From Oidiodendron maius Zn (Eukaryota > Ascomycota > Leotiomycetes > Myxotrichaceae): a stretch of 64,000 nucleotides of DNA. Positions 23,377-49,575 of the stretch are shown piece after piece. Position 1 is the first letter of the stretch. Every line of letters starts with the position of its first letter. The notes beneath the pieces were generated by a model. It did no database searches. It saw only the letters and a program-made list of their open reading frames with translations, and had not been told where the DNA came from. Location: the NCBI GenBank assembly GCA_000827325.1, contig KN832870.1, positions 6,367,783 to 6,431,782 on the forward strand, read 5' to 3'. The translations under genes were made by a program, and so were the position numbers.

Positions 23377-24369
23377 CTACCATCTAAGAATCTTTTCTGG
23401 AAAATACTCATCGATGAGTTCCAGATAGTACGACTGAGTGATGAAACATGGTTAGCGAGCGCTGCCATTGATATTAAATGAGCGTTAGAAGAAAAAAAGT
23501 CTAACCTTTAGCTTTTCGGGATCCGGGATTTCATTTGACTTGCTATACAAATCATAGGGGTTAAACGCCCGCACAGCTTTGAGCATTTCCTGATCATGTT
23601 GGTTCATCAACTCATGGTATGCGCCTTCTTTGTGCCACGGGTAGAACGAATGATATCTGATCATCGCCAACCCTTCGGCAGGAATTTTGGATTGATCCTT
23701 GACAATATGGTAGAGATATTCGTCGTGACCCCATGAAAGCATCACGTTATCCAATCCGCAGCCAGGGGAATAGATCCCGAACTTGGTGCTGTATATTTCG
23801 TTCTTGTAATCATCGTTGTCCTTAAATGACTCTGTCCCAAAAATAATCTTATCGTCAAAAGCACAACCGACTGGAAATGTATCGCCGACCACATCCCACT
23901 GTCCCTGAGCACCGAAAAAGAACAAAAGCTTGCCAAGGTCATGTATAAGACCCACAAGTTGCATCCAGCGGGGTTTGCCATCAGCACGGAGCGCTTCAGC
24001 GGACTGAAGTAAATGTGTCATCTGGGACTGGGTAGTGTCCGGATCACATTCATCAATAAATGTGTTCAACTTTTCCATAGCCTCCCAGACGGTCATGTTT
24101 GCACGAGTCTTATTCTTGAAATCATTGCGCGCCTTGAGGTTATACGCGACGGTTTGAAGCGTGTGTTGTGTAGCATAGAAATTCTTCACGCCATCACGAG
24201 CGTCTTCGAACTGACGAAAAGTAGACTTGTTCTTCTCTCTGTCAAAATCGGATTCTCCATAGAGAGAGTCGTCTGTTATGAAATTTCCTTTAACGATGTT
24301 CACAGCATCGATGCTGTCAGACATCGATTCGAGATTGACCGGACGTGGTTGGAGAACAGCGGCTGCCAT
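23377..24369 (-). CDS. myo-inositol oxygenase
   Basis: Di-iron oxygenase that cleaves myo-inositol with O2 to D-glucuronate, cytosolic. Two exons with an intron at 23434-23505 give 306 residues, the usual length. Diagnostic motifs with metal ligands: QHTLQTV, LIHDLGKLL (HD pair), SWGHDEYLYHIV and MIRYHSFYPWH. The substrate-side segment GDTFPVGCAFDDKIIFG is also typical. The second exon supplies the conserved C-terminus LIDEYFPEKILRW, which confirms the intron. It is divergent from the PhyH gene, sharing a 795-base promoter with a CGG-N10-CCG palindrome. MIOX sets the substrate of this region as inositol. Identity is near certain. Confidence 0.96.
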
Positions 24370-25164
24370 TTTTGGTAGTGAAATTGAAGTAATAGAGTAT
24401 ACCTACATTCAGCTAGGTTAAATTTGATGGGCAGTTGCAAGACGTCGAAGCACAATTTATAAGGATACAACTTATGAAGCACATTGAACAAGCAGCGTCC
24501 GGATATCGTTCTCCGAACCTCTCTACTAGTCTGAGAACCGACGATGAACTTTGATGGGCCTATAATTTTCAGGTGAACTGACGTAAAGTCTCTTGCCACG
24601 ACCGATTATGAACCTAGAGTTAAAACATACGGGTGATCACGGAGAGCATTTCCCGAACCCCACCTCAAAGTTGAAAGTGGGCGCCACAAAAGAGAACAAA
24701 AACGGATTGGAGGCTAGAAACATCTAACACACGTGAGGCTGATATTTCAACCCTAGCATTATACCAAAGGGCTGCTCTCATCCAGCATCATATGTGCCAT
24801 TACAATCGATTCCTGGCCAGGTCAAAAGTGTATGGGCGAAGGGTTACAACCTCGGAATTCCCTCCGGAGTGGGGTGTATTAACGACTTAGCCGCAACCCA
24901 TCGTTGAGTCGGGTATTTGCGCATCGCCCGATAAATCCTGCCCAACAAAGTCTTCCTCGTCATTTTTATTTTTAACTCATCGCGAAAATTCCAAAGAAAA
25001 AGATAGCCATAGAGGTAAGCCACCTTCCTACGGGTGTATACATGCTATGGCTTGGGACTGAAACCTCACCTCAATAAGGCTGTCCTTATCTCGTTCTTGA
25101 AGCTGCAAGAACTCGGACAAGATCGAAGTCTTCCAGGCTCTACCGACGATTTACGTCTGCCAGA
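24370..25164. promoter_or_regulatory. divergent promoter MIOX / PhyH
   Basis: Shared 795-base intergenic region between two outward-reading genes. It holds the palindrome at 24500-24515 and a second CGG-N8-CCG at 24853-24866. Confidence 0.6.
24500..24515. promoter_or_regulatory. CGG-N10-CCG palindrome (site 1)
   Basis: CGGATATCGTTCTCCG, 131 bases upstream of the MIOX start. CGG inverted repeats are the classic target of dimeric Zn(II)2Cys6 factors. The same spacing recurs upstream of other genes in the cluster. Confidence 0.5.
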
Positions 25165-26358
25165 ATGATTTCGAAGTCACGGGACGCGCTGTCAACGGCA
25201 GTTTCACCTCGACTATATTCGATTAACCGGCCACCCTCTTTAACTGCTTTCAAAAAGCTGTGCTCCGAAGAAACTTTAACTGAGCAATACCCGCTCTCTG
25301 CGGCAGTTGAATCTAACGTGCCAATCTATGACCTCCTCAACTTTGATTCTAACGATCCGGCTACTGCTACCTCTTTGCAGGATGAATGGCACCATATCTT
25401 ACTCTCGGGACCAGGTGTTTTTGTTCTGCGACATATGTATTTTGATACAGCGCCTTTAGAAAAAGCGAACAGCATTTTTCAGAAGATAATCGACGCTGAG
25501 AGGTCTTCATCTTCTAAAGGAGATCACTTTGCGCACCATGGAAAGAATGATAGGATATGGAATTCTTTCAGCAAACACGGTCTTCAGGACCCAGTTTCTT
25601 TCGTCGACTACTATTCCAACCACTGGTTAGCACTCGTGAGCGAGGCATGGCTGGGGCCAGGCTACCGTGTCACTTCACAAGTCAATATCGTGCGGCCCGG
25701 CGGCGATGCGCAGACAGCACATCGTGACTACCATTTAGGGTTCCAAACCACCGAGGAGTGTGCGCGCTACCCAAAAGCCATGCATATTGCTAGTCAATTT
25801 CTCACATTGCAGGGTGCCGTTGCTCATAGCGATATGCCTGACGGGACAGGGTCTACAAGGCTGCTTCCGTTTAGCCAGCGCTTCGAAGAGGGCTTCATGG
25901 CATATCGCCTTCCCGAGTTTAATGAGTATTTCTTATCGAAATACGTTAGCTTGCCCTTGAAGATGGGAGATGGGATCTTTTTCAACCCTGCATTGTTTCA
26001 TGCTGCTGGTAGCAACCAAAGCCTAGATATCATCAGGAAAGCCAATCTAATGCAGATCAGCAGCGCCTTTGGAAAGACGATGGAGACGATAGACAGCCTC
26101 ATCTTGATTGAGCAGTGTTGGAATACACTGAAACAGAAATATGATAGCGAGGGCTTGAGTTATGGAGTCAAAGCATTTGTATCTGCTGTTGCTGACGGAT
26201 ATCCGTTCCCAACAAACCTTGATAGAAGGTCTCCGGCTCCAGGAGGTCTCGCACCAGAGACTCAGCAGCAGACAGTACTAAGAGCTCTGCAGGAGAACTG
26301 GGATAAGCAGCATGTATTGAATATTTTGCATAGGATAGTGGAGGATTCTGAGGCCTGA
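25165..26358 (+). CDS. phytanoyl-CoA dioxygenase (PhyH) family protein
   Basis: A 397-residue intronless Fe(II)/2-oxoglutarate-dependent dioxygenase of the PhyH family. Iron ligands are visible: His and Asp in QTAHRDYHLGF and the distal His in NPALFHAAGSN, followed by an Arg (IIRKANLMQIS) able to bind 2-oxoglutarate. The first 25 residues are Ser/Arg-rich and could be a mitochondrial targeting sequence; no peroxisomal C-terminal signal (ends EDSEA). The substrate is unknown. Its sharing a promoter with MIOX suggests a job in inositol or sugar-acid metabolism, which is inference. Confidence 0.85.
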   Translation: MISKSRDALSTAVSPRLYSINRPPSLTAFKKLCSEETLTEQYPLSAAVESNVPIYDLLNFDSNDPATATSLQDEWHHILLSGPGVFVLRHMYFDTAPLEKANSIFQKIIDAERSSSSKGDHFAHHGKNDRIWNSFSKHGLQDPVSFVDYYSNHWLALVSEAWLGPGYRVTSQVNIVRPGGDAQTAHRDYHLGFQTTEECARYPKAMHIASQFLTLQGAVAHSDMPDGTGSTRLLPFSQRFEEGFMAYRLPEFNEYFLSKYVSLPLKMGDGIFFNPALFHAAGSNQSLDIIRKANLMQISSAFGKTMETIDSLILIEQCWNTLKQKYDSEGLSYGVKAFVSAVADGYPFPTNLDRRSPAPGGLAPETQQQTVLRALQENWDKQHVLNILHRIVEDSEA

Positions 26359-27535: not shown

Positions 27536-28658
27536 ATGGGAGCTGCAAAACTCAAGATTGCCTGTGCAGGCCTTGGTCGTATGGGGAAACGCCATGCCAT
27601 TAACTTCCTCCAACGTACTCCACGCGCAGAGCTTGTCGCGGCAAGCACGCCAGATGAGATCGAATTCCAGTGGGCTAAGCTGAACCTCGAGCCCTTTGGG
27701 GTGCAGGTTTACAAGGATTACGACCAGATGCTGAAGCATGAAGGCTTGCAAGCAGTCATTATAGCGTCTGTAACCACGGTTCATGCTGAACAGACAATCA
27801 AAGCCATCAAAGCCGACCTCCATGTCTTATGTGAAAAGCCGCTTTCTACAAGCGTGGAGATTGTAGGCAAAATTCTGTCCGTAGCTCTTAGGCGGTCAGC
27901 TAATTCCAAGTCAACAGTCTCAGTCGGTACTCGAAGCTGCACAGAATAAGCCCGATCTCAAAGTAATGTGCGGATTTTCGCGCCGCTTTGATACATCATA
28001 TCGCGACGCGTGGAGTAAGATGGATTCCGGCTTGATCGGTCGTCCGTCCGTACTGCGTAGCCAGACGTGCGACAAGCTGGATCCCAGCGGATTTTTTGTG
28101 GCCTACGCAGAATTCTCTGGAGGCATTTTTGTTGACTGCTCAATCCATGACATAGATCTTGCTCTTTGGTTTTTTGGTCAGGACTGTCGAGTGAAATCGA
28201 TAGTTGCAAGTGGCATTACGGCTGTTCAACCAGTCCTCCGGCAACACAACGACGTTGACAATGGCGTTGGAATCATCGAGTTCTATGGCGGCCAAATTGC
28301 CTATCTCTATTGTTCTAGAATGATGTCGGCAGGTCAAGAAGATACGACAGAAATTATCGGGACCGATGGGAAATTAACTATCAATATGCAACCACAGCTA
28401 AACCTAGTAAATATTCACGGGCCCACGGGAATTCGTAGGGAGGCTCCTACTCATTATTACGATAGGTTTGAGCAAGCGTTTGTATGTGAAGCAAACGAAT
28501 TTACAGCTTGTTGCCTAGATAACACTAAGCTACCTATGAAGTTAGCTAGTGCAGTTCAAGCGGTAACGATTGGCAGTGCGCTACAGGAGTCCCTGAGAAC
28601 AGGGCATAAGATTTGGTTTGATGAGACCGGCCAAAGGATAGCTAGGGCTGCTCTCTGA
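27536..28658 (+). CDS. Gfo/Idh/MocA dehydrogenase, inositol 2-dehydrogenase-like
   Basis: NAD(P)-dependent oxidoreductase of the Gfo/Idh/MocA family, 355 residues in two exons (intron 27863-27917). The Rossmann start is KIACAGLGRMGKRHA; the family's EKP signature is in LHVLCEKPLSTS; the catalytic Asp/His region is GGIFVDCSIHDIDLALWFFG. Bacterial relatives include inositol 2-dehydrogenase (IolG), and the presence of MIOX and an inositol-type transporter favours a cyclitol or sugar substrate. Xylose or dihydrodiol dehydrogenase activity is also possible for this family. A decayed paralogue lies at 22441-23029. Confidence 0.82.
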
Positions 28659-29397: not shown

Positions 29398-32368
29398 TCA
29401 TCGAATTGGGTATTGGGAGTAATTGGTAATACCAGGGCTTGACGGCACTGAAAAGACATTGCCCCAGTTCCCGGGCATGCCCTCCATACTCGCAGCAAGC
29501 ATCCAGTCGAAGTCAATATGCATCCCAAAATTGGCTGCTGGGCTATAGTTGGTCGCCATGCCGTTGTCGGACCAGTATTCCCTCTGCAACGATGTGGCTG
29601 TCTCATCACGGAAGCGCGAGGGCCTGCTTTCATTGTTCTCGTCACTGGGTTGGGTCGACGCCCACGGCCGTTTCTTCGCGGCCAAAAAGCCCGACCTTGT
29701 AGAGCCAGCATCATCGTGCACGGTAGCCAAACTGCTCGACCTCGCTTGCCGTTCCCAGTGCCGTTGCAACCGGATGAGGAAGTCACGAGCCCGCTTAGCA
29801 GTGTCCCAAGAGGGGGCCAGCTCGTCCAGTGCTCGGAAGCACACGTTCAGGTCAGCCAGGATCTGGTCTTCTCTTTCCTGCCGGTAGTACAAGACGGTGG
29901 CGAAGACAAGTAGCAGCGCGGCGGAAAAGGTGATTGCCACAGCCTGGATATTGATCCTACGGAAGGTGTATCGCTCTTCGTAGAGACGTAGCAGCTGTGC
30001 TATGGCGCTCGCCGAGTCCATGCACATTTTCCGCGCGTGGTCGGCGCTTGGAGCCCGCTGTAAGTGGATGTGGCTCTTTGACATCCAGGGTCGGTAGGCG
30101 TAGATGACGCTTTGATAGTATTGCATGCTAAATCGAGCGTGTTAGGAAGAGAAAGTGCATTATGCGTGGGGGAGGAAAGTAGCCTACTGAAGCAGGATGA
30201 CATGCGGTAAGTAAGTAGCTTCGCGATTGTCGAGCTCCACGCGTAGCTCAACTGGAAGATTTTCCTTCCAGTCTTGAAGTTTCGTAACGGTCTGAGCATT
30301 AAGTTCTTGCAGAGCACTCCTCGAGGTTGTCGTGCTGCCATACCTAAAGAGAGTGACAAGGTTGTTAGATAGTGACCATCTACTCTCTCAGATGTTCTTA
30401 AGCTTACAGGGTGTCGCTCAGAGGTGCCATGGCCTCAAAGAGTAAAACCTGATACATACAGACTTCTTCTACACAATCGACCATAGGGGTGAAAGTCTGC
30501 GCCGCGGTCGAGGACACATAAGGGGTCCACTGTCTAGGTAGCCCCAAATGGATTTTTGAACCAGGCTTTTCGAGGCTGACGCCTTTCATTGACATCCGGA
30601 ATGGTTGACCTAGGTAAAAGCTCCAGACACTATGCCACACAGTCAGGATTCATGACCAGAATCGTAGGTGTTGAGAAGTTCTCTCACTGGTCCACAACAA
30701 AGGCGGCCCAGAAGACCGTTCGACGCAGGTCAGCCTCAGCTGCTGTTACTGCTCCTTTGGCGACATAAGGCTTGAGGTCCTGATGCAACGCCAGGTTGAA
30801 GGATAGTCGCATTGCCATACCTAACGCGAGAGAGGTCAGCTAAAGCCTAAGGTAGTCTCTCATCGACGAGCGAACGACACACCGCTGAAGAGCCACCCCC
30901 TGGCATCCCTGCCGCATCCTATATCGTGTGCGCTCAAGAGAACTAGGGCCTGGATAGTAGCGACGCAAGGCGAGTCCAGTTCTATTTCCAGAAGTGCCTT
31001 TGCTCTGTCAGCGAAGAAATCGGCGAGGGACCTAGGGAATGTGACGAATGCCGGATGATGTCGAGCATCGAAGGCAGCTCCCAGAGAGCAACTTTCCATC
31101 CGAGTTTAGCTCGCGACCACTAAAGAGAGTACGCCCTTGACTTACATGGCATTTCTTAGCGCTTCTGAGTAGTATGACGTTTCCTCCCTCTTATCACACC
31201 ATAATACTTTTGCATCCTCGAACATCTGGCGATCGACGGCATGAAACGATGGGTCCTGCCAGGTAAAGTAAAGATTCATCAGATGGTCCTCTATCTCGGT
31301 TGGAACCTCCTTGTTGACCCCAAGGCGATGCAAATGCTCGACACCATCATTCCGGATAGTCCGATGAACGTTCATACTGACATCCGAAGCCGGCGACTCC
31401 AGGAGGTTGAAGTTCGACGTCGATCCGTAGAAGCGGATGTGGCCACCTGGTCTGATGTGGAGAGTTCCCACTCGATCCGACAGCTGGTCTACCAGTTCGT
31501 CGACACAATCAGAGGAGCTGATGCCATCGTCCTCCAACGAAGGACAGCTCGGTACTCCGCCGGAGATGGACTGCTGTTGCGGGGTAGTCGGGACGTTTCT
31601 GGAGAAGCCATGCGGAGCAGAGTCTGTTGGGACGCAGCTTGGGCGCATCATGTGCCCCTGAGCCATAGTTTCAGCCGCCATATTCCAGTCCCAGGCAGCG
31701 GTGTTCTGAATGATGCCGCCCGTATTACCTGCCGCGTTAGCAAGTTCGAGTAAGCCTCGCACTGCCGGGAGCGGGCTGTCCGGGGCGTGTTCTGAATAAG
31801 GTATCTCGTGCACGTTTGATTCTCGTGCTACTGCGCTCCCAGGGGTTTCAGTCCTCTGATCCAGATATCGAGCGTCCGGATATTCCTCTATAGCACCATT
31901 CTCGCCGGCTGTTCCTCCTTGTGTGGGTGTGGGCTGAAGGTGTCCTAGGGTTCGCAAGATATCCGATAATGTCTTGTTATCATCTGACGGCATCTGAGGG
32001 ATATCTAAACCATTATCACAGATAAATAGAGAGAGCTGCTGGACTCGGTTGGAGAGGAGCTCGATAGCGACGCGAAGGGAGAGCCTACAATGTCAGCACA
32101 TCTAGCTGGAGATGTTGTAAGAAAGGCAGTATTGACTTGCGCTTGTCTTCTCTGGCCTGGTACCGACATTCCTTGCTTTTGGCCACGCAATTTGAGCAAG
32201 TCGGTCTTGCACCATTACACTTATGCAGACGTCAGTTTTGAGCATGCGCTTAGCTTGAACAAGCAGCATTGAATTAGAGTATACCTTGACCTTACTCTCC
32301 CGGCAAGCAACACAGGCTGTCGTAACATGCTTTCTCTTGGTATCGTGCTTCGGCGACGGTCGCTCCAT
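29398..32368 (-). CDS. Zn(II)2Cys6 regulator, NirA-like (paralogue 2)
   Basis: Paralogue of the regulator at 18096-20989. Exon 1 (MERPSPKHDTKRKHVTTACV) and exon 2 join over an intron to give C-x2-C-x6-C-x6-C-x2-C-x6-C from residue 19. Exon 3 has LRVAIELLSNRVQQLSLFI and LSDRVGTLHIRPGGHIRFYG, then TSNFNLLES. Later exons carry DSPCVATIQALVLLSAHDIG, ADLRRTVFWAAFVVDQ and, in the last (29398-30126), RPWMSK and RRINIQAV. Start is ATG 32368, with an in-frame upstream ATG at about 32434 also possible. A CGG-N10-CCG palindrome lies 264 bases upstream, suggesting autoregulation. It is next to the SDR/transketolase block and is my best candidate regulator of it. Confidence 0.85.
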
Positions 32369-33016
32369 TCTGACAGTCGGCGGAGGAGGAAACTCCCGCA
32401 CCCGGGAGGGAGGGGGGAATGAGAGGAAGAACAAGCGGGGTAAGGCTTTAGTAGCAAGCAGTCTTCTTGCAAGGCCCGGGTTTCAGGTGGTCTCACTGTG
32501 TTAGGGGAATTATTCCGAGCAGCACTCGCTACATTGTGCAACAACACATATGAGGAGATGGCGTCGTACGTCGAGTGAGGGTAGAAAGCACGTGACTAAG
32601 TGCGGGGATTTGCGGGGATTGGCGGCGTCTTCGGAAACCAAATTCCGTGGAGGCGTCAGCAGGGGACTGCAAGCAAGGGTGTGGCAAACTTGCGTGGCAG
32701 GGCTGGAGTATATTCAGATATTATACATTTTACGTTTTATTAATGTCTAGTAATTTATTATCTGGGATGTACGATAGCGACAAGAATAAAATAATGCGTC
32801 TCATGTACGTACAGCAGTAGTTAATCCTAACCATATATTTTTTTAGCTGGATATCATATTTGCAGCCTCTAGTCGGGTCTAGACTAAGTACACAAAGCGC
32901 TACATACTGCCTTTGGGTATAGAAATCTATCCCCGATCAAGCCATACATATATGTTGCATGGCTAGCTCACTCGAGGCCTCTCCGCTGAGGTTATCATGC
33001 ACTGGAGCCATATCCT
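32369..33016. other. intergenic, promoter of regulator 2
   Basis: Promoter of the second regulator and 3' end of the SDR gene. Contains the palindrome at 32632-32647; otherwise nothing recognised. Confidence 0.5.
32632..32647. promoter_or_regulatory. CGG-N10-CCG palindrome (site 2)
   Basis: CGGAAACCAAATTCCG upstream of regulator 2. It shares CGGA...TTCCG with sites 42994 and 45319. Confidence 0.5.
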
Positions 33017-34144
33017 CTACATTAGTCTTCCCGCGTGGATACCTCCTGTGATGAGAATATCGTCTGATGTGTGATACGCACTAGCATCGGACAGGAGGTA
33101 GACCACAGGAACCTTAAGGTCAGTCCTGTCACCGATCCGGCGCATTGGAGGCTCGTTAACCATGATGTCTGCCAGCCAGGGATAGCGATCGCACAGATCG
33201 ATCGTCATGTCCGTCAGCATGTACCTGTCCACCCAAATTGTCCTTATCAGCCTTACGGAAGAAAAAAAGATATGGGAAGACAAAACAACTGCGATGATAG
33301 AATAGGCTTACCCAGGAGAGATGGAGTTGACACGGATGCCGAAGGCCGCGAGTTCGACGCCCAGTGCCTTGGCCAGCGATAGGACGGCGCCCTTGCTGGC
33401 ACAGTAGTCGCTTGTTGTCTGGCCTTTGCTAGCAACATGTGCGGCGATGGAGGCGATGAAGACGATCGAGCCGCCGCGCGGGTTGAAGTCGGTCGGCTCC
33501 TGCTTGGCCATCTGGGCGGCGGCAAGCTGGGCGGCGTAGTAGGTGCCTAGTACGTTGATGTTCATGCACCGGGCGACGGACTCGGGTGCGCGCTTCATGA
33601 AGGGCTCGTCGGGGCAGATGCCGGCGGCAGTTACTCTACGGGTTGGTCATTTTCATGAGCGAAATGGTCTGGCACTGGTACGAGGCGGACTTACAGGCCA
33701 TCGATGCGCCCGAAATCCTTTACTATTTCGTCGAAGGTGACCTGGAGGCCTGCGTGATTAGTCACATCACTCCTGCATAAGCAAACCAGCTGTTTAGCAT
33801 TTGTATCCCTGTAGACCATAGCCTGCTGGACGAGACTGCGGTCACGCGTACAGGCCATGAACGTGTGGGAAAACTGACTTGTAAAGCTTGACCTTGACAC
33901 CAAATTCCGTCTCTAGCTTCCGGAAATGATCATGCGGCTTGTCAAGCAGGTCGATTATAGCGACATTGCCTCCAACCTCAGCGACAGCGAAACCAAAGGC
34001 CAGGCCAAGACCTCGACCGCCGCCAGTGATGACAATGGTGCGGCCCTTGAGGGAAATCAGGTCATACACGGAGCGCGACAGGAACTTGTCTGGGTTGCGA
34101 TCGAGGACCGCCTTGCCTGTCGTCGGGGGCTGCTGGGTTGCCAT
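33017..34144 (-). CDS. short-chain dehydrogenase/reductase (keto-sugar/keto-acid type)
   Basis: Classical SDR, 291 residues from four exons (33879-34144, 33695-33772, 33312-33635, 33017-33224). Cofactor motif TGGGRGLGLAFG; NAG-like VTAAGICPDEP; catalytic Ser in IVFIASIAAH and YxxxK in SDYCASKGAV. It resembles fungal sorbose/L-xylulose/2-keto-sugar reductases. In fungal D-glucuronate catabolism SDRs reduce 2-keto-L-gulonate and 5-keto-D-gluconate, so such a step fits this neighbourhood, but the substrate cannot be read. Divergent from the transketolase over 452 bases. Confidence 0.86.
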
Positions 34145-34435: not shown

Positions 34436-34451
34436 CGGAATCCTGATCCCG
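34436..34451. promoter_or_regulatory. CGG-N10-CCG palindrome (site 3)
   Basis: CGGAATCCTGATCCCG in the divergent promoter between the SDR and the transketolase (34145-34596). Confidence 0.5.
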
Positions 34452-38411: not shown

Positions 38412-38525
38412 CGCGAGCAACCTTCTTAACTGCGGTAGGATCTGGATAGCCCGACGATAGGAGATCGAGGTTTTCTGATGGCTGCTGATGCTCTACATCT
38501 TTGACTAGAGAGGGGCTTGTGGGCG

Positions 38526-38541
38526 CGGGATCTGGTTTCCG
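38526..38541. promoter_or_regulatory. CGG-N10-CCG palindrome (site 4)
   Basis: CGGGATCTGGTTTCCG in the 395-base divergent promoter between the polyol dehydrogenase and the flavin monooxygenase. Confidence 0.5.
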
Positions 38542-38806
38542 AGCATCCAAGTCCCGTCCACAAAAGTGGATGCGATTCCAATGTACCCCGCCGACACACA
38601 ATCGCAGACCGGATTATGGTGACCGGACTGGGGAAGCTGGTTTCCTCGTTGGTCTCTAGCAAGTGGCAAGTTTTGTCTCGGTCTCGCACACTTTTACTCT
38701 GAGCTCTTCCCAGCACCTTAATACATTGCACGCCTCTCATTGAGACGGAGAACTTAATCATCTTGATTTTTGAACTCAATTCAGTTGTCAGTCTCGCTTT
38801 CTCATC

Positions 38807-40617
38807 ATGTCGGCGCACACAAAGCCTCTAGATGCCATTATCATCGGCGCAGGGCCGGCGGGCATCGCCATGGCATATCGCCTGAAACATGAGCTCAATT
38901 TTCACGACTTCCTCATATATGAGAAGCTCGATGGTGTAGGTGGAACATGGAGGCTAAACACCTATCCAGGATGGTATGTAGAAATCTAAATGAGCTATAC
39001 TTTGCGCAGCTAGATGCTAGGAGCTGAGAATTTCGCCAGTGGTTGTGATCTTAAGTCCCATCTCTATTCCTTCAGCTTCAACCCGAATCCCAATTGGTCA
39101 AAGGAACTGTGCGAGCAACCCGAAATCCTTCAATGTACGTGTCAGGCTTATCGTTCCCCCAACACATGGGACTGAGTATGAGACTAACGGCGTTTACGAT
39201 AGACATGGAAGATACGGTTGACAAATTTGGCATCCGCAAGCATGTCCACCCGTCAGTCGAGTGCACTGGTGCGAAATGGCACGGCGATATCGCCAAGTGG
39301 GAGGTTTTCGTCAAGGACCTCGAATCGGGCATCGAGTACTCGCGTTTCGCATCCATTTTCGTCTCTGCTGTAGGCGCCATCTCGTTCCCGCGAGATGTCA
39401 AATTTCCAGGTATGGAGAACTTCAAGGGTCATATGTTCCACACGGCGCGGTGGGACCACTCCGTGTCGTACAAAAACAAACGCGTCGGCGTCATCGGCAA
39501 TGGCTGCAGCGCCGCCCAGGTCGTTCCAGCCATGGCCCAGAGGGCGAGCTTTGTGAAGCAGTACGCTCGTAGTGGGCAGTGGTTCCACGCCCGGCCGAAC
39601 CGGCTCAATACAGACTTTGACAAATTCCTATTTCGTTGGATCCCTCTCTGGCAGCGACTGCTCCGCCTCGGCATATTCCTTGAGGCTGACGAGGAGACCA
39701 CGACATACTTCCCTACTACCAAGGGTCTCAGGGCTCGCATCGCAAAGGAGAAGGAGTCTAAGGAATATATCCAGTCCAAGGCACCAGAGAAGTACTGGCA
39801 ATACATCATCCCCAAGTTTCCACTTGGATGCAAGCGTCGTATCTTCGATCCTGGATACCTCGACGCTCTTTGCCGACCCAACGTTGAGCTGCTCCCCGAG
39901 GGCATCAAGGAGATCACCGAGACGGGCATCATCAGCTCCTCAGGAATCCAGGATGATTACGACATCATCGTCCTCGCTACCGGATTTCAGGTTTCTGAAT
40001 TCTTAACTCCTATGGGAATCATCGGCGTCGACGGACGATCGCTGCACCAACAGTGGCAGGAATGTCGAGGCGCCCAAGCATACCTGGGTACCTACGTGCA
40101 TAATTTTCCCAATCTCGCCATCATCTTCGGGCCTAATACCTTCCCCGCCAACAACTCTGCCCTGTTTGCGTGCGAGACCCAGGTGGACTATGCCATTAAG
40201 TCGCTCTTCACGCCGCTAATCGACCGCTGGGCCGATGTAATCGAGGTCAAGCAGACAGTTGAGGACTACACGACCAACGAGATCCACAGGCAACTGAACA
40301 ACACCGTCTTCGCAGGAGATTGCTCCAACTGGTACATCGGTAAATTTGGCCGCAATGCTGCCTCATGGCCCGGGCTGGCGCGGTCGTTCTGGTTCAGCAC
40401 GTACTTCCCTGACTGGTCGGCCTTCAAAGTCATCGGCGGAAGTAGGCTTTGGCCGCTCTATGCTGCCCGCCGTTGGCTGACGACCATGAAGCCGCTCACG
40501 ATGGCCTTTATTTCTCTCGGGCTTGTAGCAGTAGCGGTTCGTTATGGAGGTCATGACGCAAGGATCCCGACTATTGCAACCCTAAGGAGCCTAGTCACGA
40601 GGGCGAGTGTGGTTTAA
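38807..40617 (+). CDS. Baeyer-Villiger-type flavin monooxygenase
   Basis: FAD/NADPH monooxygenase, 558 residues, three exons (introns 38974-39039 and 39135-39202). FAD site DAIIIGAGPAGIAMAYRL; GGTWRLNTYPGCGCD across the first junction; the type I Baeyer-Villiger fingerprint F-x-G-x3-H-x3-W-D in FKGHMFHTARWDHS; NADPH site GVIGNGCSAAQ. The last 50 residues hold a hydrophobic segment (TMAFISLGLVAVAVRY), so it may be membrane-anchored. Such enzymes insert oxygen into ketones. No ketone step is obvious in a sugar-acid pathway, so its job here is open. Confidence 0.9.
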
Positions 40618-41323: not shown

Positions 41324-42805
41324 TCACGAGAGAGCTTTCTGCATGTAAATACATACAGGCTCGAGAGAGAAGCCCCAATTCTTTGGAATAACCATCTCTG
41401 CTAGATCATCTCGGCGGAGATCCAAAAAGTAAGACAGAAGGACACGCACAACTGCGCGGTGTGTTATGAGCAACATGTGGTCCTTCCTGCGCTCCAATTC
41501 CAGAATTATGGGCCGCAGGCGGTGGATAACGTCAAGGTAGCACTCTCCACCAAGACCAGGCCACCTATATTGGAGTTTATACTGCTTGCGGGCAGCATAA
41601 ACCGCGGGTTGAAGCGTGGCGATCTCCTCGAACGTCAGCCCAGCCATGTCGCCCGCATTGAGATCGTCGAGCGTCTTCATCTGAGACTTTACATAACGCT
41701 CTTCACAAAAGCCCGAGGCGGTCTGGATGGCCTGAGGCATTGTTGAAGTCCAGATGCAGAAATTGAGAAGAGATGGCGAATCTTTGCCAGTCTGCGAGCC
41801 CAATGTATGCTCTTTCTGTGCTGGGTCGCTAACTCTTAACTTCGTTGAGTCATGATTCTGGAGTCTATGACTTTGCATGTCCTGTTCCCAGCGTTCTCGC
41901 TCTTTGTGGATGAAACTGACGAGTGATGCAGCATACCGCTGTCCGTCTTCTGTGAGATCTGATCGTCTTCCTATTTTGCCTACGCTATCGTCCATGCTCT
42001 CGCCACCACAGAATATCCATATTTGACGCTCTGACAAGTTAAAGTTAAGCATATACTCAACCACCTGAGTTGAAAGGAATCCTTGGATCAAATGGGTGTT
42101 GGTCTTTCGGCCAACGTCAATGGTCTGCAGATAGGGTATTTTATCTTGCTCCTCGGCTTCTCCAAGTGGAACATACGACTTCTCGTAGAAGACAACCCTC
42201 TGACGGAAGTCCTTGAGGGCCTCATCTGGATCTTGGTTCCTGTAGTCCGGTCCGTTGAGCTTCAGCCTGAAGTTTCGTTCCAGTATTTCCTGGTCAAAGC
42301 AGCAACTTTCGATGAGCAACACCTCGTTTAGAGTTCCAGCTTTTCGGCGAATATGTGACAGGAGTGTCTGGCGTCGCTTCAGCGTGCTGTTTGTTGCGTC
42401 AAGTATCCCAACACTGCTGCTCTCCTGCCCTGAGAGCCAGTCGAGAAGCTCTTCCAGAGTTTCAAGGGCGATCCGCTCACGGACTGAGACCAGATCAGGG
42501 TTTGTCGGGTCAAAGAAGGCTGCTGAAGATGAAAATGGACGTGGATAGAGGCATTTTTCCACTGGCTTCTCACCACTGCGTTCTATATGCGCTGCTACCC
42601 TGCGTCGTTCCCCAACATTGAAAACGCGGGATTCGTACTGTAACCAGTTCAAGTATCTAGCCAATTTCCTAACGATGTAGCTTTTACCCCTAGCAGGCAG
42701 CCCGACCATAATAATCAGTAATTTCGGGGCTACATAGCTGGGGTCTATAGTCTTAGTACAGGATAGACTAGAGGACGTGGAGCTGGCCATGTTTGAGATG
42801 ACCAT
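41324..42805 (-). CDS. 6-phosphofructo-2-kinase with degenerate phosphatase domain
   Basis: A 493-residue, intronless PFK-2/FBPase-2 family protein making the glycolytic activator fructose 2,6-bisphosphate. Kinase domain: KLLIIMVGLPARGKSYIVRK (Walker A) and NVGERRR, with ILDATNSTLKRRQ. The phosphatase domain begins where RHGES is expected but reads WIFCGGESMDD: both the Arg and the phospho-accepting His are replaced (R to C, H to G). The second catalytic His (LLITHRAVVRVLL) is kept. The product should therefore act as kinase only, as in yeast PFK26, whose His is also replaced. Start is ATG 42805 or 42790. Divergent from the aldehyde dehydrogenase. Confidence 0.92.
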   Translation of the reverse strand: MVISNMASSTSSSLSCTKTIDPSYVAPKLLIIMVGLPARGKSYIVRKLARYLNWLQYESRVFNVGERRRVAAHIERSGEKPVEKCLYPRPFSSSAAFFDPTNPDLVSVRERIALETLEELLDWLSGQESSSVGILDATNSTLKRRQTLLSHIRRKAGTLNEVLLIESCCFDQEILERNFRLKLNGPDYRNQDPDEALKDFRQRVVFYEKSYVPLGEAEEQDKIPYLQTIDVGRKTNTHLIQGFLSTQVVEYMLNFNLSERQIWIFCGGESMDDSVGKIGRRSDLTEDGQRYAASLVSFIHKERERWEQDMQSHRLQNHDSTKLRVSDPAQKEHTLGSQTGKDSPSLLNFCIWTSTMPQAIQTASGFCEERYVKSQMKTLDDLNAGDMAGLTFEEIATLQPAVYAARKQYKLQYRWPGLGGECYLDVIHRLRPIILELERRKDHMLLITHRAVVRVLLSYFLDLRRDDLAEMVIPKNWGFSLEPVCIYMQKALS

Positions 42806-42993: not shown

Positions 42994-43009
42994 CGGATTT
43001 AATATTCCG
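42994..43009. promoter_or_regulatory. CGG-N10-CCG palindrome (site 5)
   Basis: CGGATTTAATATTCCG in the divergent promoter between the phosphofructokinase-2 and aldehyde dehydrogenase genes, with an AT-rich centre like site 6. Confidence 0.55.
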
Positions 43010-43273: not shown

Positions 43274-45039
43274 ATGAACAAAATCTACAGAGCGCAAGCA
43301 ACCCCAGCCTCACTTACGCAGCTTGTGCATGGGGGTGGCTAATTGAAAATTTCTGTATCTACAGTTGAAGAACAAGAGCTTGTTCTGCGGAGATGCCTTC
43401 ATAAACGGAGAGTGGGTCACCAAGAATGAGCAATTCGCCGTCTACGGTCTGTACCCCTATGGGACCCACTCTCAACTTTCGCCATACTCATGTTGAATAG
43501 AACCCTCATCCAGTGCTGTCTTAGGCAATGTGTCGAACTGCAATCTCGAAGATGTTCGGAAAGCTATCCGGAGTGCAGATGAGGCCCAGCGCAGCTTCTA
43601 CAGAACGACAACGGGAACTACAAGGGGGGCACTGCTGAGAAAATGGAATGACTTGATTCTTGAGAACCAGGATGATCGTAAGTTTGCACCACATCAACTT
43701 AGTTAAGTCATATCGTAACGTGGCTGATAATAGTTGCGACCATTCTCTCTCTCGAAAATGGCAAGACATTGAGCGAGGCGAAGGGCGAGGTCATCTACGC
43801 CGCGAGTTTCATATCATGGTTTGCCGAAGAAGCCACCCGGTCTTACGGTACTACTATCCCGTCATCTACACCCCATTCAACTCTGATGACCGTCCGTGAG
43901 CCGGTCGGGGTATGCGGCATCATCACGCCCTGGAACTTTCCAGCCGCCATGATTACCAGGAAAGTCGGTCCAGCTCTCGCCGCCGGCTGCTCCGTCGTCA
44001 TTAAGCCACCCAGCGAGACTCCTTACAGTTGCATTGCCCTTACCAAGCTGGCCGTCAGGGCTGGCCTGCCTCCCGCAATTATTCAGGTCTGTCCTACTAA
44101 GGACCGTGAGACCGCTAGCGAGTTGGCCACGAACCCTCTAGTGAAGAAGCTCAGCTTCACCGGCTCGACTGGAGTAGGGAAGATGTTAGCCAGGCTGGCG
44201 TCAGGTACCCTAAAGAAAGTCAGTCTCGAGTTGGGCGGTAATGCTCCATTCATTGTTTTTGACGACGCGAATCTCGATCTGGCTGTGGAGGGTGCCATGT
44301 TCTGCAAGTTTCGCTGCTCAGGGCAGACGTGTGTTTGGTAAATCCCTTTTCCCTCCCTTCTCGTTCTGCGCATGTGTGTAAATCAATACTGTGCACCGCA
44401 GCCCGCAAGTAATGGGATTTTACACAAATTGCTAACGGGGTGTTTAGCGCGAATCGGATCTACGTCCAGACGGGTATAGCTAAAGCTTTCACAGAAAAAT
44501 TGGTGAAAGCAGTGCAATCACTCAAGACCGGACCAGGCTTGGACTTAGCTATGACTCAAGGTCCATTGGTGAATAAAGCTGCTGTAGAGAAGGTCAAAAT
44601 GCATGTTCAGGATGCAGTCTCGAAGGGCGCGAAGGTCGAGGTTGGCGGCCACGCGTCCCAACACACCGGTTTCTTCTATGAGCCTACTGTTCTCTCCGGA
44701 GTGACCCCTGATATGATTGTCAGCCGGGAGGAGACATTCGGCCCACTCGCTCCAGTTTTCCAATTTGAGACGGAGCAAGAAGTCCTGCAGCTCGCTAATG
44801 ACAGCGAATTTGGCCTGGCGGGATACTTCTTCTCCCAGGACATCGCTCGAGCGATGCGGGTGGCGCAGATGCTGGAGGTCGGCATGGTAGGCGTGAACAC
44901 TGGAAAGATTAGCGCGGCTGAAGCACCCTTTGGAGGTATTAAGGAGAGTGGCTACGGCAAGGAAGGCAGTCTTTATGGCCTTGGAGAGTACCAAAATATT
45001 AAGAGCATCACGATTGGCAACCAGAATGTTGACCTCTAA
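43274..45039 (+). CDS. succinate-semialdehyde dehydrogenase-type aldehyde dehydrogenase
   Basis: NAD(P)-dependent aldehyde dehydrogenase, 501 residues from five exons (43274-43324, 43365-43446, 43501-43677, 43734-44337, 44448-45039). Motifs: INGEWV; PWNFPAAMITRKVGPALAAG; KPPSETPYS; FTGSTGVGK; the general-base Glu in SLELGGNAPFIVF; the catalytic Cys in SGQTCVCANR, formed across the fourth intron; FGGIKESGYG. The pattern is that of SSADH (GABA shunt). The first intron is only 40 bases, so the start (MNKIYRAQ) is less certain. In plants an SSADH-like enzyme is proposed to oxidise tartrate semialdehyde, which would fit between the transketolase and the tartrate-type dehydrogenase here. Confidence 0.9.
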
Positions 45040-45318: not shown

Positions 45319-45334
45319 CGGAATTTATATTCCG
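45319..45334. promoter_or_regulatory. CGG-N10-CCG palindrome (site 6)
   Basis: CGGAATTTATATTCCG, 169 bases before the tartrate-type dehydrogenase start; the most symmetric of the set. Confidence 0.6.
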
Positions 45335-45502
45335 CAATTCAAGCCGCTTCACACTCGCAAGGTGACGTGAATTCTGTTACCCAATCTTTCGATGTCGTTC
45401 TCGGAAAGGCTACATCTTAACGATTAATAGATTAGATATTGCCTTCACTCAGGTGAACTGTCACACTTTGAAGCAGTAAGCAAGCCCCTTAGGATCATTT
45501 CC

Positions 45503-46750
45503 ATGTCGATCGCACGGAACGGCGCTTGCCGGTACAAGATTGCATCTATCCCTGGGGACGGGATAGGGATAGAGGTGGTAGAGCAGACGATCAAAGTTCT
45601 CCGGGCCATTGAGGCAGTATTCAACTCATTCACTCTAGACATCGACACGTTAGACTGGAGCTCAAAGCGGTACTTGGAAAAAGGCGAATATATTCCCGCA
45701 GATGGCTGGCAGAGGTTGAAGGCGAGCGATGCCATCTTATTTGGTGCTGTTGGGTCACCTGGTAAGTGACCAGCCAAGAAGGAAGGGAATTTTCAATCTA
45801 GAGAGGTCATTTATCTGACAATGATGCCACCTCTTAGAAGTACCTGATGACGTCTCCCTGTGGAACCTGATTCTGCCGCTTCGGAAGAAGGTGATAACTC
45901 AAGGACAGTCAAGTCGAACCAGTAGCTGATAGTAACTCAGTTGAATCAATACATTAACCTTCGCCCAATCCGGATTCTACCTGGACTGTCGTCTCCGCTG
46001 AAGAACTGCGCAAATGGCGATCTAGACTGGGTCATTGTCCGGGAGAATAGTGAGGGCGAGTACGCTGGCCAGGGCGGCACCACGCACGATGACACCCCAA
46101 ATACCATTGCCAATGAAGTCGCCGTCTTCACCAGGGTCGGAATCGAGCGCACCATGCGCTTCGCTTTCGAAGTCGCTCGAGAACGGCCCCGACGAAAGTT
46201 AACCATGGTGACTAAGAGCAACGCCCAGAGATACGGCATGGTCTTGTGGGACAAGATCTTCTACGAGGTCGCAAAAGAGTACCCCGATGTCGAGACGGAC
46301 AAGATGCTCGTGGATGCCATGGCAGTGCGGATGGTGTTGAAGCCCAATACGCTGGATACTATCGTGGCCACCAATCTCCACGGCGACATCCTGTCCGATT
46401 TGGCTGCCGCACTGGCTGGCAGCATTGGAGTTGCCTCTTCCAGCTCTCTGGACCCGACAAGGCAGAATCCCAGCTTGTTCGAGCCAATCCACGGAAGTGC
46501 TCCGGACATAGCGGGTCTGGGCATTGCTAATCCCGTCGGAACGTTTTGGAGCGCTGCGGAAATGCTCAGGTGGCTTGGGGAATGTGCAGCCGCAGATCTC
46601 CTGTTGAGGGCTATTGAGACAGTTACAGCCAATGGGGCCAAGACAAAGGATTTGGGGGGGATGTATAATCTTGCTCAAGTCACCGAGGCTGTCATAGTGG
46701 AGGTGAAGAGGTCGTTCGATGCTGGAAAGAAGATTAAGTCTAGAGTATAA
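45503..46750 (+). CDS. tartrate/D-malate/isopropylmalate-type dehydrogenase
   Basis: Decarboxylating beta-hydroxyacid dehydrogenase, 373 residues, three exons (introns 45762-45837 and 45891-45940). Motifs: IASIPGDGIGIEVV; AVGSPEVPDDVSLW; NLRPIRILPG; VRENSEGEYAG; the metal-binding Asp pair in LHGDILSDLAAAL; FEPIHGSAPDIAG. The SLWNLILPLRK and ENSEGEYAGQGG variants are those of tartrate dehydrogenase/D-malate dehydrogenase rather than leucine-biosynthetic LeuB. It could oxidise tartrate or a related C4 hydroxyacid. It follows the aldehyde dehydrogenase on the same strand by 463 bases. Confidence 0.9.
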
Positions 46751-47846
46751 TTTAAGAAACAAGCAGTTCAGTCAAATACGTTATTGTGCTATTATTGATA
46801 TTCCCTGTTCTTATTATTGCCTTTGGCTCTCTGTCAGGTATGTAGAGTTTGGTTGGATACACCATTCAGGTTATTTTTGAAGGTCCCCATTCCTAATTTG
46901 CCCGATTGGCTCCATCTTAGCTAAAAATCCCCGATAAACGAGGTAGCGCGGTAATCAGCAAGTCTCTGCAGGTGAGCCGAATTAATCAGAACAAGAATAT
47001 GATTGACCTTAATACGGAAAACATGGAAGCCCTTGGGATTATTTACAAGTCAGCTGGGGTCAGGAGGCATGTGTATCCGGCCTTAGCTGTAGATTTTGGG
47101 TTCCCAGACAAATCTTAGTCTGTGGATGTGGCGATTGTTTAGTGTATAGGTGGCTCTCTTGGGTACACTGATACTACTTAGCAATGGTTTTATGTTAGAC
47201 CTTGCTATTATATACTTATTAAAAAATAGAAATAAATAGTATAAGATTAAAAGCCTGCAGAGCTAATTTATTGACTTTAAATTCCATACAGTATATATCT
47301 AAAAGCGTACAACTTAACATGGAAAACATTACAAGAGCTTGTTTATTAACACCACTCTTTTCTCATACAAATATAAATTTATTCGTTTTATACAAGTAAG
47401 GCGACTTCATGTAAAACTATATTATACTAACCTAGGACAAGGCATGCTTCGGACGACCCCACGAAAAGGAAAATCTGGAGAAATCAGGGGTGTGGAGTCT
47501 GTACGGAAGACATTTCCGGGGAAAGGTGAACGCTAGATTTCTTTGAGTCAAGCCTGGCCCGCTAAATCCTTGCCCTCGGCAACCTCTAGTTATATTCCCA
47601 TGTTCTCATTAAAAGCTTTCTCGGAATCCAGATTCCATTGTTGCGATCTGCGACGGTGCCAGAGATGCAGCTACCCAAACTATGGGTCCCCGGAATCCCC
47701 TAATCATATAAAGAGTTGGTCGTCTTCACTAGTCTCCATCGACAACCTTCAATCTTCTATAGCCCACACCTCCTGTTCCTCCATATATACTATTCCTGTA
47801 CGGATTAACAACAAAGCCGAACGGGATTATTCAATCTCTGTTTGCC
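46751..47846. other. intergenic, promoter of the MFS transporter
   Basis: About 1.1 kb; first half AT-rich with no gene. The second half is the transporter promoter: near-match palindrome at 47622-47637 and a CGG-N9-CCG at 47504-47518, then a CT-rich leader. Confidence 0.5.
47622..47637. promoter_or_regulatory. near-match CGG-N10-CCA palindrome (site 7)
   Basis: CGGAATCCAGATTCCA: the same spacing and CGGAAT..ATTCC core as site 6 with one mismatch in the right half, 210 bases before the transporter start. Confidence 0.35.
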
Positions 47847-49575
47847 ATGTCTGCAGATCTGAAGCTCGACTCGGACGTTACGACCCCCGAGCATGTGGAA
47901 GGCTCAAACCCCAAGGCCATGACTGAGTCAGAGATGGAGGACATCTTCGCCGAGGACTTGGCGTATGGGCCGAATGGCATCCGCGGGATAATTGGCAACT
48001 CGTACGTGTTCGGCGCCGCCTTCCTTGCCTCGCTAGGCGGCTTCTCCTTCGGTTACGACCAGGGCGTCATCTCGATTATAAACGTAATGGACCAATTCCA
48101 GAACGCTTTCCCCAGGACGCGGACTGCTTTCGGCACTAGCTTCATGACTGCCATGCTGCTGCTCGGGGCTTTCGTAGGCTGCATCTTCATGCCATCCCTG
48201 GCTGACAAAATCTCGCGAAAGTGGGCCCTGACTGTTGTGGTGGTTATATTTGACATCGGCGCCATCATGCAGACCTCTTCTCAGAGCTATGGTACCTTGG
48301 TTGCTGGAAGAGCCATCGGAGGTATTGGAGTTGGTACTCTTGCAATGGTATGTAAAATTCTACGCTGTAGTGTCATTTCTGAACCCTCTTTTTGTTGGTA
48401 CGGAAAGTTTACAAAGGCATATAACACAGGGTGCGCCACTATACATCTCCGAGATCTCTCCGCCAAATCTGCGAGGGACCCTTCTCGTGCTCGAGTCTAT
48501 CTCAATTGTGTCTGGCGTCGTCATTGCCTTCTGGATTACGTATGGCACACGATACATCGCGAGTGAAGCCGCGTTCAGGCTTCCCCTGGGCTTACAAATG
48601 GTCTGCGCTACAATTCTCGGTGTCGCCATCCACTTCTTCCCGTATTCACCCCGGTGGCTTACCCTCGTCGGACGTAATGAGGAATGCCTAGCTAGTCTGT
48701 CGAAGCTGCGTGGCCTACCACCCACCGACCGCCGCGTGCAAAAGGAGTTCAAGGGAATCGTCGCTGAGGTCGAGTTCAACAAGATCATCTTGGGAAAAAG
48801 ACATCCAGGAGCCAGCGCCTTTAAGCTTGAGGTGCTTTCGTGGCTGGATCTTTTCGACCGTAAGATGTGGCGCAGGACGGTGGTAGGATGCGGTGTCTGC
48901 TTCTTCCAGCAGTTTTCCGGTATCAATGCTTTCATTTACTATGCACCCACCCTTTTTCGATCTATAGGGCAGCCACCCGAAAAGGCTCTCATTCTGTCTG
49001 GGGTCTTCAATATCTTGCAGCTCGTCGCAGTTGCCATCTGCTTTGTTATCATTGATAAGGTGGGAAGAAGGCCACTTGCAATCGTTGGAGGGTTTGGGTC
49101 CTGCATCTGCTATATAGTCATTGCTGCTGTTGCTGGAATCTACTCAAAGGATTGGTCGGCAAACCCAGCCGCAGGCTGGGCAGCCGTGGCCATGGCATTT
49201 TGCTTCATTATGGTGTATGGAGTTTCGTACTCGCCCCTGGGATGGAGCCTACCCCCAGAGGTGTTCCCAAACTCTAAGCGAGCGAAGGGCGTGGCTCTGG
49301 CTGTATGCGTTAACTGGCTTTCCAACTTCACCGTCGGAATCGCTACTCCTCCCATGCTTCAAACCATTGGTTATGGGACATATATCTTTTTTGCTGTTTT
49401 CTGTGGGCTATCCGGGTTCTGGGCAGTGTTTCTCGTCCCCGAGACGAAGGGCAAGACTTTAGAACAGATGGACCTCATGTTTGGAGATAACAGCGGAGAG
49501 GAAGAGAAGGATTTCATGAGGATCGCTGCTGCTTCAGCTGAGCAAACCGTTATGAGCCAGACCCAGCATGTATAA
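47847..49575 (+). CDS. MFS sugar/sugar-acid transporter
   Basis: Twelve-helix sugar transporter, 548 residues, two exons (intron 48348-48429). Motifs: FSFGYDQGVIS; LADKISRKWAL; GRAIGGIGVG; PLYISEISPPNLRG; FPYSPRWL; QQFSGINAFIYY; DKVGRRP; VPETKGKTLEQMD. A 60-residue acidic N-terminus precedes helix 1. As the last gene of the block with a possible shared operator, it may import the pathway's substrate; which sugar or sugar acid is not readable. Confidence 0.93.

Follow-up and report, generated by a model that had tools for sequence, protein, structure and literature searches.

The transketolase gene block of Oidiodendron maius

In the genome of Oidiodendron maius Zn (45.9-Mb assembly, G000), a 64-kb stretch of contig C1 (KN832870.1; hereafter the window) carries a block of metabolic genes built around a transketolase (TK). 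Spliced gene models were obtained with a custom gene finder based on codon bias and GT-AG introns, some splice points being checked by eye. Three models were corrected from the DNA: the end of the last exon of the myo-inositol oxygenase gene (MIOX; 23377), the exon 4/5 junction of an aldehyde dehydrogenase gene (ALDH), which as corrected retains the catalytic Cys in GQTCVCANR, and the start of TK (34597). From 18 kb onward, the order is TF1(-), MIOX(-), PhyH(+), IolG-like(+), TF2(-), SDR(-), TK(+), ADH(-), FMO(+), PFK2(-), ALDH(+), TDH(+) and MFS(+), where SDR is a short-chain dehydrogenase, ADH an alcohol dehydrogenase, TDH a tartrate dehydrogenase and MFS a major facilitator superfamily transporter (Table 1). 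The core of the block (33017-46750) comprises SDR, TK, the sorbitol-type ADH, FMO, PFK2, an ALDH of the succinic semialdehyde dehydrogenase (SSADH) type and TDH. The original prediction for this DNA had described an inositol/glucuronate-to-tartrate catabolic cluster, and all eight genes that it named at 23377-49575 were recovered as spliced models with Pfam families (MIOX; Gfo/Idh/MocA; adh_short_C2; a three-domain transketolase; ADH_N and ADH_zinc_N; Iso_dh; Sugar_tr). Two paralogous fungal transcription factors and a PhyH-type dioxygenase are added to that list here. The four enzymes that had been called adjacent are not contiguous, because FMO (38807-40617) and a 6-phosphofructo-2-kinase (41324-42709) separate ADH from ALDH. 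The models scanned, which covered only part of those outside 23-50 kb, included no recognisable glucuronate reductase or 2-keto-L-gulonate reductase.

Table 1. Genes and promoter palindromes of the block and its flanks (window positions)
Feature	Position	Strand	Basis
TF1, fungal transcription factor, possible part	18096..20989	-	gene model; 39% identical to TF2 over 854 columns
two CGG-N10-CCG palindromes (21132, 22256), TF1/MIOX interval	21132..22271		motif scan
MIOX, two exons (24369..23506, 23433..23377)	23377..24369	-	Pfam; iron ligands kept
two CGG-N10-CCG palindromes (24500, 24640), divergent MIOX/PhyH promoter	24500..24655		motif scan
PhyH-type dioxygenase, promoter region common with MIOX	25165..26358	+	PF05721, 76.7 bits
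Gfo/Idh/MocA dehydrogenase, inositol 2-dehydrogenase-like	27536..28658	+	Pfam, NCBIfam; no upstream motif
TF2, Zn2Cys6-type fungal transcription factor, candidate regulator	29398..32368	-	PF04082; Zn2Cys6 read by eye
CGG-N10-CCG palindrome, TF2/SDR interval	32632..32647		motif scan
SDR oxidoreductase, best NCBIfam match gluconate 5-dehydrogenase (below cut-off)	33017..34144	-	NCBIfam, Pfam
CGG-N10-CCG palindrome, divergent SDR/TK promoter	34436..34451		motif scan
transketolase, Q476-N477 signature; exons 34597-34876, 34935-36085, 36183-36884; signature DNA 36243-36286	34597..36884	+	Pfam, yeast TK alignment
Zn-dependent ADH, sorbitol / L-idonate 5-dehydrogenase type, two exons	37158..38411	-	Pfam, NCBIfam, solved relatives, tree
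two CGG-N10-CCG palindromes (38526, 38610), divergent ADH/FMO promoter	38526..38625		motif scan
FMO-like flavoprotein	38807..40617	+	gene model, Pfam
6-phosphofructo-2-kinase (PFK2), bisphosphatase signature lost (RHG to CGG)	41324..42709	-	Pfam, alignments
CGG-N10-CCG palindrome, divergent PFK2/ALDH promoter	42994..43009		motif scan
SSADH-type aldehyde dehydrogenase, five exons, last intron 44338-44447	43274..45039	+	NCBIfam, 3jz4 alignment
CGG-N10-CCG palindrome upstream of TDH	45319..45334		motif scan
tartrate dehydrogenase/decarboxylase, TtuC / D-malate dehydrogenase family	45503..46750	+	TIGR02089; best PDB chain 3flk
MFS sugar transporter, membership uncertain	47847..49575	+	Pfam; no upstream motif

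The N, Pyr and C domains of TK were all detected with Pfam, and the protein scored 623 bits against TIGR00232, under the cut-off of 682. Alignment with yeast TK (yeast numbering is used below) showed that the residues we take to be catalytic, H30, H69, H103, H263, E418 and H481, are all retained, and that R359, S386, H469 and R528, which we take to include the phosphate-binding residues, are conserved. The canonical motif G-E-D-G-P-T-H, with D477, was not found; the window TK reads GQNGQTHQP. Gln-Asn replaces the canonical Glu-Asp at positions 476-477 in 120 of 120 TK relatives (the best 120 of 8000), which also share G264H, and F472 and E474 are each present in 119 of these 120. The other two TKs of the genome, on contigs C2 and C16, read GEDGPTHQP (E476, D477). 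By these sequence criteria, the window TK is a member of a distinct TK subfamily. Position D477, corresponding to E. coli D469, is described in passages of two enzyme studies as a specificity site at which mutations alter acceptor range and enantioselectivity (PMC5573996, PMC3657141).

Among the eight proteins scored with NCBIfam, TDH alone exceeded a cut-off in the families shown, reaching 487.4 bits against TIGR02089 (tartrate dehydrogenase; curated equivalog cut-off, 470.4). ALDH scored 641.9 bits against TIGR01780 (SSADH), about 4 below the cut-off of 646.35, and its alignment with E. coli SSADH (3jz4) showed that the catalytic GQTC and the arginines of ITRK and KFR, which we take to be functional in SSADH, are kept. 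The best NCBIfam match of ADH was L-idonate 5-dehydrogenase (NF007375; 176 bits, cut-off 469), its solved relatives being ketose reductase, L-arabinitol dehydrogenase and sorbitol dehydrogenase, and that of SDR was gluconate 5-dehydrogenase (158 bits, cut-off 279). MIOX exceeded the PF05153 cut-off (381 bits) and conserves the six iron ligands of 2huo at the positions that we assume for them, and the IolG-like protein matched IolG best (249 bits, cut-off 355). PFK2 keeps the kinase start GLPARGKSY, its P-loop being intact, and has CGG at the position of RHG in human PFKFB3, whereas a PFK2/FBPase2 paralogue on C10 retains RHG. Because the bisphosphatase signature is replaced and the kinase start is kept, the PFK2 of the block is likely to be a kinase without bisphosphatase.

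Linkage in other fungi, a shared palindrome and a bacterial parallel

The original prediction depended on conserved synteny, and such synteny was found for TK, ADH and TDH. Homologue lists comprised the best 120 of 8000 matches for TK and for TDH and the best 120 of 2247 for ADH, with 90% clustering that hides members; a shared contig was called from an identical size of the longest contig of each match together with locus tags, a criterion with little force where contigs reach megabase size. A contig size was available for 118 TK rows; at least 32 of these sizes recur in the ADH list and at least 14 in the TDH list; at least 10 contigs are common to all three lists, and at least 13 to ADH and TDH. 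Where serial locus tags were available within one assembly, 11 of the 12 species among the matches listed had two members separated by no more than 8 tags, or by no more than 20 if the numbering advances by tens. TK, ADH and TDH are neighbours in Phialemonium (tags 9917/9916/9913), Scytalidium (g3130/g3131/g3134) and Conoideocrella (8273/8280/8276). TK lies close to ADH in Talaromyces atroroseus (03583/03582), Penicillium argentinense (002768/002769) and a Dothideomycetidae sp. (010100/010080, tags in tens), and to TDH in Neocucurbitaria (6464/6468), Paraconiothyrium (12047/12050), Cladophialophora (3192/3199) and Exophiala (4238/4246). TDH and ADH are close in Pseudogymnoascus 05NY08 (09333/09337), where the three intervening tags equal in number, their identities aside, the FMO, PFK2 and ALDH genes found here. 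The nearest named relatives of TK, TDH and ADH among the matches listed belong to Pseudogymnoascus, Diplogelasinospora, Cadophora and Coniochaeta. Equal-sized contigs and neighbouring tags thus suggest that TK and ADH became linked long ago and that their association extends across several fungal classes. Taken as a whole, this pattern, together with the promoter palindrome described below, makes it very probable that the cluster is real and conserved rather than a chance neighbourhood.

A common promoter element was sought by a triplet-pair scan of five core promoters, excluding that of MIOX. CGG-N10-CCG ranked first and was present in four of these five, the TDH/MFS interval being without a site. 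Of the nine upstream intervals from TF1 to MFS, seven contain the palindrome (10 sites): TF1/MIOX, MIOX/PhyH and ADH/FMO have two each, and TF2/SDR, SDR/TK, PFK2/ALDH and ALDH/TDH one each, while PhyH/IolG and TDH/MFS have none. When each shuffle of the nine intervals was scored by its best result over 63 combinations of spacing and orientation, 0 of 1000 shuffles matched the seven-interval count. A six-interval version (TDH/MFS omitted, TF2/SDR and MIOX/PhyH added), which is a flattering choice of regions, also gave 0 of 1000, and no other spacing from 0 to 20 gave more than 4 sites there. The pairs of sites in the MIOX/PhyH and TF1/MIOX intervals were equalled in 0.009 and 0.0135, respectively, of single-region shuffles. 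Across the whole window, 19 plain sites were counted where about 9.5 would be expected, 10 of them being those of the nine intervals; eight paralogue loci (3 MIOX, 3 TDH, 2 TK; 79 kb) hold 16. The refined form CGGA-N8-YCCG, drawn from the same sites that were later counted, occurs 8 times in the window, always within 22256-45334; its single occurrence in the paralogue loci lies within the TK gene of C2. With the shared palindrome as a proxy, the block is apparently co-regulated. TF1 and TF2 are paralogues that flank MIOX, and TF2, whose Zn2Cys6 motif was read by eye in its first exons, is the natural candidate to bind the palindrome.

Scans of prokaryotic contigs with exact patterns returned 0 contigs for the fuller signature including Glu474, and 6 for Gln-Asn without Glu474 (variants of the pattern being missed): 5 from Bradyrhizobium and 1 from a Firmicutes metagenome-assembled genome. 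In all five Bradyrhizobium loci (L057, L059-L062), TRAP DctQM, TK, a type II HAD protein and ALDH lie on one strand; a GMC oxidoreductase follows on the opposite strand in 4 of them, L057 ending before that point. An Iso_dh-family match is located about 7 kb past TK on the same strand in all five genomes, which are related and not independent, whereas the same genomes encode nine further full-length TKs, taken regardless of their 476-477 motif, all of which lack such a match within 10 kb. In one genome, the adjoining stretch (L063) carries, besides the Iso_dh-family dehydrogenase, an MFS gene whose best match is a D-galactonate transporter (below cut-off). The five Bradyrhizobium TKs share R359I, S386P, E476Q and D477N, and the Firmicutes TK (L058 730-2712), in a different gene context, combines Gln-Asn with R359L and R528V, so that R359 is lost in 6 of 6 prokaryotic Gln-Asn TKs (I in 5, L in 1). 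Identity to the window TK is 36% for the Bradyrhizobium TK, no higher than the 38% of yeast TK, and the Gln-Asn signature accordingly looks convergent in fungi and Bradyrhizobium.

Four MIOX copies are present in the O. maius genome. On C4 (L032 4733-8377), MIOX lies beside a sorbitol-type ADH (50% identical to the window ADH) and an SDR resembling A. niger GluF, an enzyme that is 265 aa long according to PMC5814732. The C4 SDR has 264 aa and ends in GWMGR, the last residues encoded by the gluF reverse primer given in the same paper (translated by hand); the window SDR is 31% identical to this C4 protein, which was used in place of A. niger GluF. The C4 locus therefore looks like the known exit from 5-keto-gluconate to gluconate, clustered with MIOX. 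C21 (L033 2291-8389) carries an SSADH-type ALDH and a TDH (51% and 53% identical to the window proteins) with an MFS gene. The pairings of MIOX with ADH and of ALDH with TDH thus each recur. On C11 (L030, L031), two more MIOX genes are separated by 38 kb, and close to each is an MFS gene whose product is about 30% identical to an MFS-like model at 12922-14831 of the window.

A proposed route through 5-keto-gluconate and its alternatives

The substrate of TDH must be a malate- or tartrate-like diacid, and a C4 semialdehyde acid would be a suitable substrate for an SSADH-type ALDH; a TK acting upstream would supply such a semialdehyde from a 5-keto-hexonate. 5-Keto-D-gluconate has the D-threo ketose geometry required of TK donors. 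Reading the block as a catabolic cluster of Pezizomycotina, we propose that TK would take this sugar acid as ketol donor and cut it between C4 and C5, releasing L-threo-tetruronate (tartrate semialdehyde), that ALDH would oxidise this product (2,3-dihydroxy-succinic semialdehyde) to L-tartrate, and that TDH would oxidise or decarboxylate tartrate towards hydroxypyruvate/glycerate. MIOX would supply glucuronate from inositol via unlinked genes. We estimate the probability of this chemistry, through 5-keto-gluconate and tartrate, at about 0.57. The C4/C5 cleavage route ending in tartrate oxidation, as originally predicted, is thus partly supported, the block being conserved and its enzymes fitting the route. 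Membership is uncertain for two of the predicted genes, IolG-like and the sugar transporter MFS, neither of which has an upstream palindrome.

The fate proposed here for the C2 unit differs from that prediction, in which glycolaldehyde was the product. The kept phosphate-binding residues do not point to a fully non-phosphorylated reaction, and they would be explained if a sugar phosphate were the acceptor of the C2 unit, TK converting glyceraldehyde 3-phosphate to xylulose 5-phosphate. Returning three xylulose 5-phosphates to trioses would need phosphofructokinase, and a kinase-only PFK2 could favour this by raising fructose 2,6-bisphosphate, thereby speeding phosphofructokinase and regenerating the triose-phosphate acceptor. 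Such C2 transfer with PFK2 support is put forward tentatively, the alternative being release of free glycolaldehyde. Equally tentative is the wider idea of a dedicated natural family of sugar-acid transketolases in Pezizomycotina, running a C2-transfer cycle with PFK2 in which tartrate semialdehyde would be consumed by way of tartrate; the Gln-Asn switch would then have been made independently in Bradyrhizobium, close to genes for an aldehyde dehydrogenase and a beta-decarboxylating dehydrogenase.

The route has parallels in known systems. In A. niger, passages on the glucuronate pathway (gaaA, gluC, gluD, gluE/iddA, gluF) place at its end GluF, which converts 5-keto-D-gluconate to gluconate (PMC5814732, PMC5306355, PMC4870679), and GluE, renamed iddA, has sodh-1 as predicted Neurospora orthologue according to a passage of PMC13158570. 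This gene carries a sorbitol-dehydrogenase name, as does the family of the window ADH, and the MIOX, ADH and GluF-like SDR of C4 match the same pathway, whereas in the window cluster TK, a semialdehyde dehydrogenase and tartrate dehydrogenase would replace the GluF step. For grape, a route from ascorbate to tartaric acid is proposed in which a sorbitol dehydrogenase-type L-idonate dehydrogenase is followed by a transketolase and a succinic-semialdehyde-type dehydrogenase (passages of PMC7970118, PMC11066805 and PMC6827314). The same C4/C5 cleavage of 5-keto-D-gluconate is proposed there, but plant tartrate accumulates, while the fungal genes are clustered and include a tartrate dehydrogenase. 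The grape TK and tartaric semialdehyde dehydrogenase are described as unconfirmed, SSADH being the likely type of the latter (PMC7970118, PMC11066805), and expression of VvTK2 raised tartrate (cited in PMC11066805). An engineered E. coli TK, TKTA_M (R358I/H461S/R520Q), is reported to use 5-keto-gluconate as ketol donor with tartaric semialdehyde as product (a passage of PMC12016104), which is the reaction proposed for the window TK. The Bradyrhizobium R359I equals R358I of TKTA_M, so that the first engineered change was also made by nature; the fungal TK, unlike TKTA_M, retains R359, H469 and R528 and is changed at 472-477 and 264-266. The window TDH resembles Pseudomonas TtuC in passing TIGR02089 and in having that tartrate dehydrogenase (3flk) as its best solved relative, and differs in sitting in a fungal TK cluster. 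A literature search covering titles and abstract openings showed no fungal TK-to-tartrate cluster, in agreement with the earlier statement that none was known to be described.

Several observations weigh against this route. TtuC-type enzymes also use D-malate, and relatives of TDH among the matches listed also bear the name D-malate dehydrogenase. TDH is the one protein that clears a curated cut-off, ADH and SDR lying far below theirs, and FMO, PhyH and SDR have no clear step in the pathway. In a midpoint-rooted ADH tree, from which 27 of 122 sequences had been removed by length, 33 of 58 rows on one side were TK-linked (the window included) and 0 of 37 on the other, although the TK-linked rows do not form one clean clade (16 changes). 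The window ADH is among the 58 and the C4 ADH beside MIOX among the 37, so that by sequence the two are members of two ADH subfamilies, not one. The palindrome is less striking when the five picking intervals alone are considered, since an equally good result comes from 20 of 1000 scan-corrected shuffles, and linkage has its exceptions: TK (E8E14_001525) and ADH (E8E14_001700) are 175 tags apart in Neopestalotiopsis, and TDH of the Dothideomycetidae sp. (ANO11243_032280) is far from TK, among the matches listed. For the Iso_dh protein of Bradyrhizobium, no score attains a family cut-off, that for tartrate dehydrogenase included, and the Bradyrhizobium ALDH, which is nearest betaine-aldehyde dehydrogenase (below cut-off), does not reach that of SSADH. 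The window TK retains R359, S386, H469 and R528, and the engineering of E. coli TK for 5-keto-gluconate altered three of these (PMC12016104). The 55.3% gain stated there for the engineered TK implies that ordinary TK is already partly active, in which case the Gln-Asn signature is unnecessary for the reaction.

The low ADH and SDR scores, the broad family assignments, the separate ADH subfamily and the unexplained FMO and PhyH would also fit a real catabolic cluster acting on a different ketol donor (2,5-diketo-gluconate, L-sorbose or a 4-keto acid), with a C4 product other than tartrate semialdehyde. We consider this unlikely, since an SSADH-type ALDH together with tartrate dehydrogenase would narrow the C4 product to a malate- or tartrate-like semialdehyde and hence the donor to a 5-keto-hexonate. 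It is more doubtful still that TK is a dihydroxyacetone synthase-like (formaldehyde) or ordinary pentose-phosphate enzyme whose neighbours serve general aldehyde/carbonyl clearance. Many TK orthologues among the matches listed are automatically named dihydroxyacetone synthase, and the phosphate-binding residues are kept; but D477N, E476Q and G264H set 120 of 120 relatives (best 120 of 8000) apart from the C2 and C16 TKs, in a comparison that did not extend to the dihydroxyacetone synthases of methylotrophs, and tartrate dehydrogenase and a sorbitol-type ADH are misfits for formaldehyde, methanol genes not having been searched for. Least probable is a biosynthetic or secondary-metabolite cluster making a tartrate-derived or C4 product. 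It would be in keeping with the FMO and PhyH dioxygenase genes of the block and with a neighbouring P450-like model, but TDH would consume tartrate, PFK2 would rather fit central carbon use and the refined motif is confined to 22256-45334; moreover, no model has the length of a polyketide or nonribosomal peptide synthase (the longest, 995 aa, is a mis-extended TK), terpene synthases not having been searched for.

Whether the inositol genes belong to the same unit is a separate question. A transcription factor stands between the two sets, the IolG-like promoter has no motif and none of the three other MIOX genes of the genome is near a TK match, as would be expected if an inositol set (15-29 kb: isomerase-like, TF1, MIOX, PhyH and IolG) merely adjoined an unrelated TK-ADH-ALDH-TDH set. 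The motif, however, was chosen without the MIOX promoter, and the MIOX/PhyH and TF1/MIOX intervals nevertheless hold two sites each; in addition, the C4 MIOX lies beside the same ADH family and a GluF-like SDR. Two neighbouring clusters are therefore a real possibility but the less favoured one, and MIOX, which had been included from the outset, probably belongs to the cluster with TK.

If the route through 5-keto-gluconate and tartrate is correct, fungi would possess, in addition to GluF, another way out of 5-keto-gluconate, and the cluster would offer ready enzymes for producing tartaric acid from sugar. For grape tartaric acid, the enzymes responsible for splitting 5-keto-gluconate and for oxidising tartrate semialdehyde have yet to be established (passages of PMC7970118 and PMC11066805), and the best-characterised enzyme for the first step in the passages covered is the engineered E. 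coli TK (PMC12016104). The cluster supplies natural candidate genes for both steps, beside a tartrate dehydrogenase. Because TK and ADH relatives are on common contigs in several Aspergillus species among the matches listed, laboratory fungi could serve for such work. Q476-N477 is suggested as a signature in searches for transketolases with possible activity on sugar acids.

Other features of the window and genome

As a genome-wide regulon finder, the strict 16-bp palindrome was rejected, because it occurred at 131 places against 151 for a reversed control; just a local group of three in 12.7 kb was notable. Upstream of the block, near the MFS-like model at 12922-14831, a xylose-isomerase-like TIM barrel is encoded at 15370-16383; its best NCBIfam match is the 3-dehydroshikimate dehydratase QuiC, far under the cut-off. 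Downstream, the translation of 52190-55512 resembles, by eye, a self-sufficient P450-reductase fusion (CYP505-like), and a long open frame at 61855-63576 encodes a DDE_1/Tc5-type (pogo/Fot1-like) transposase. Near the start of the window (5614-6087), a short secreted-type open reading frame contains two near-identical repeats bounded by KR (RFLEAVENKINEFENLKTTAEE.AHGAFLPPPPSK) and looks, by eye, like the precursor of a Kex2-processed repeat peptide.

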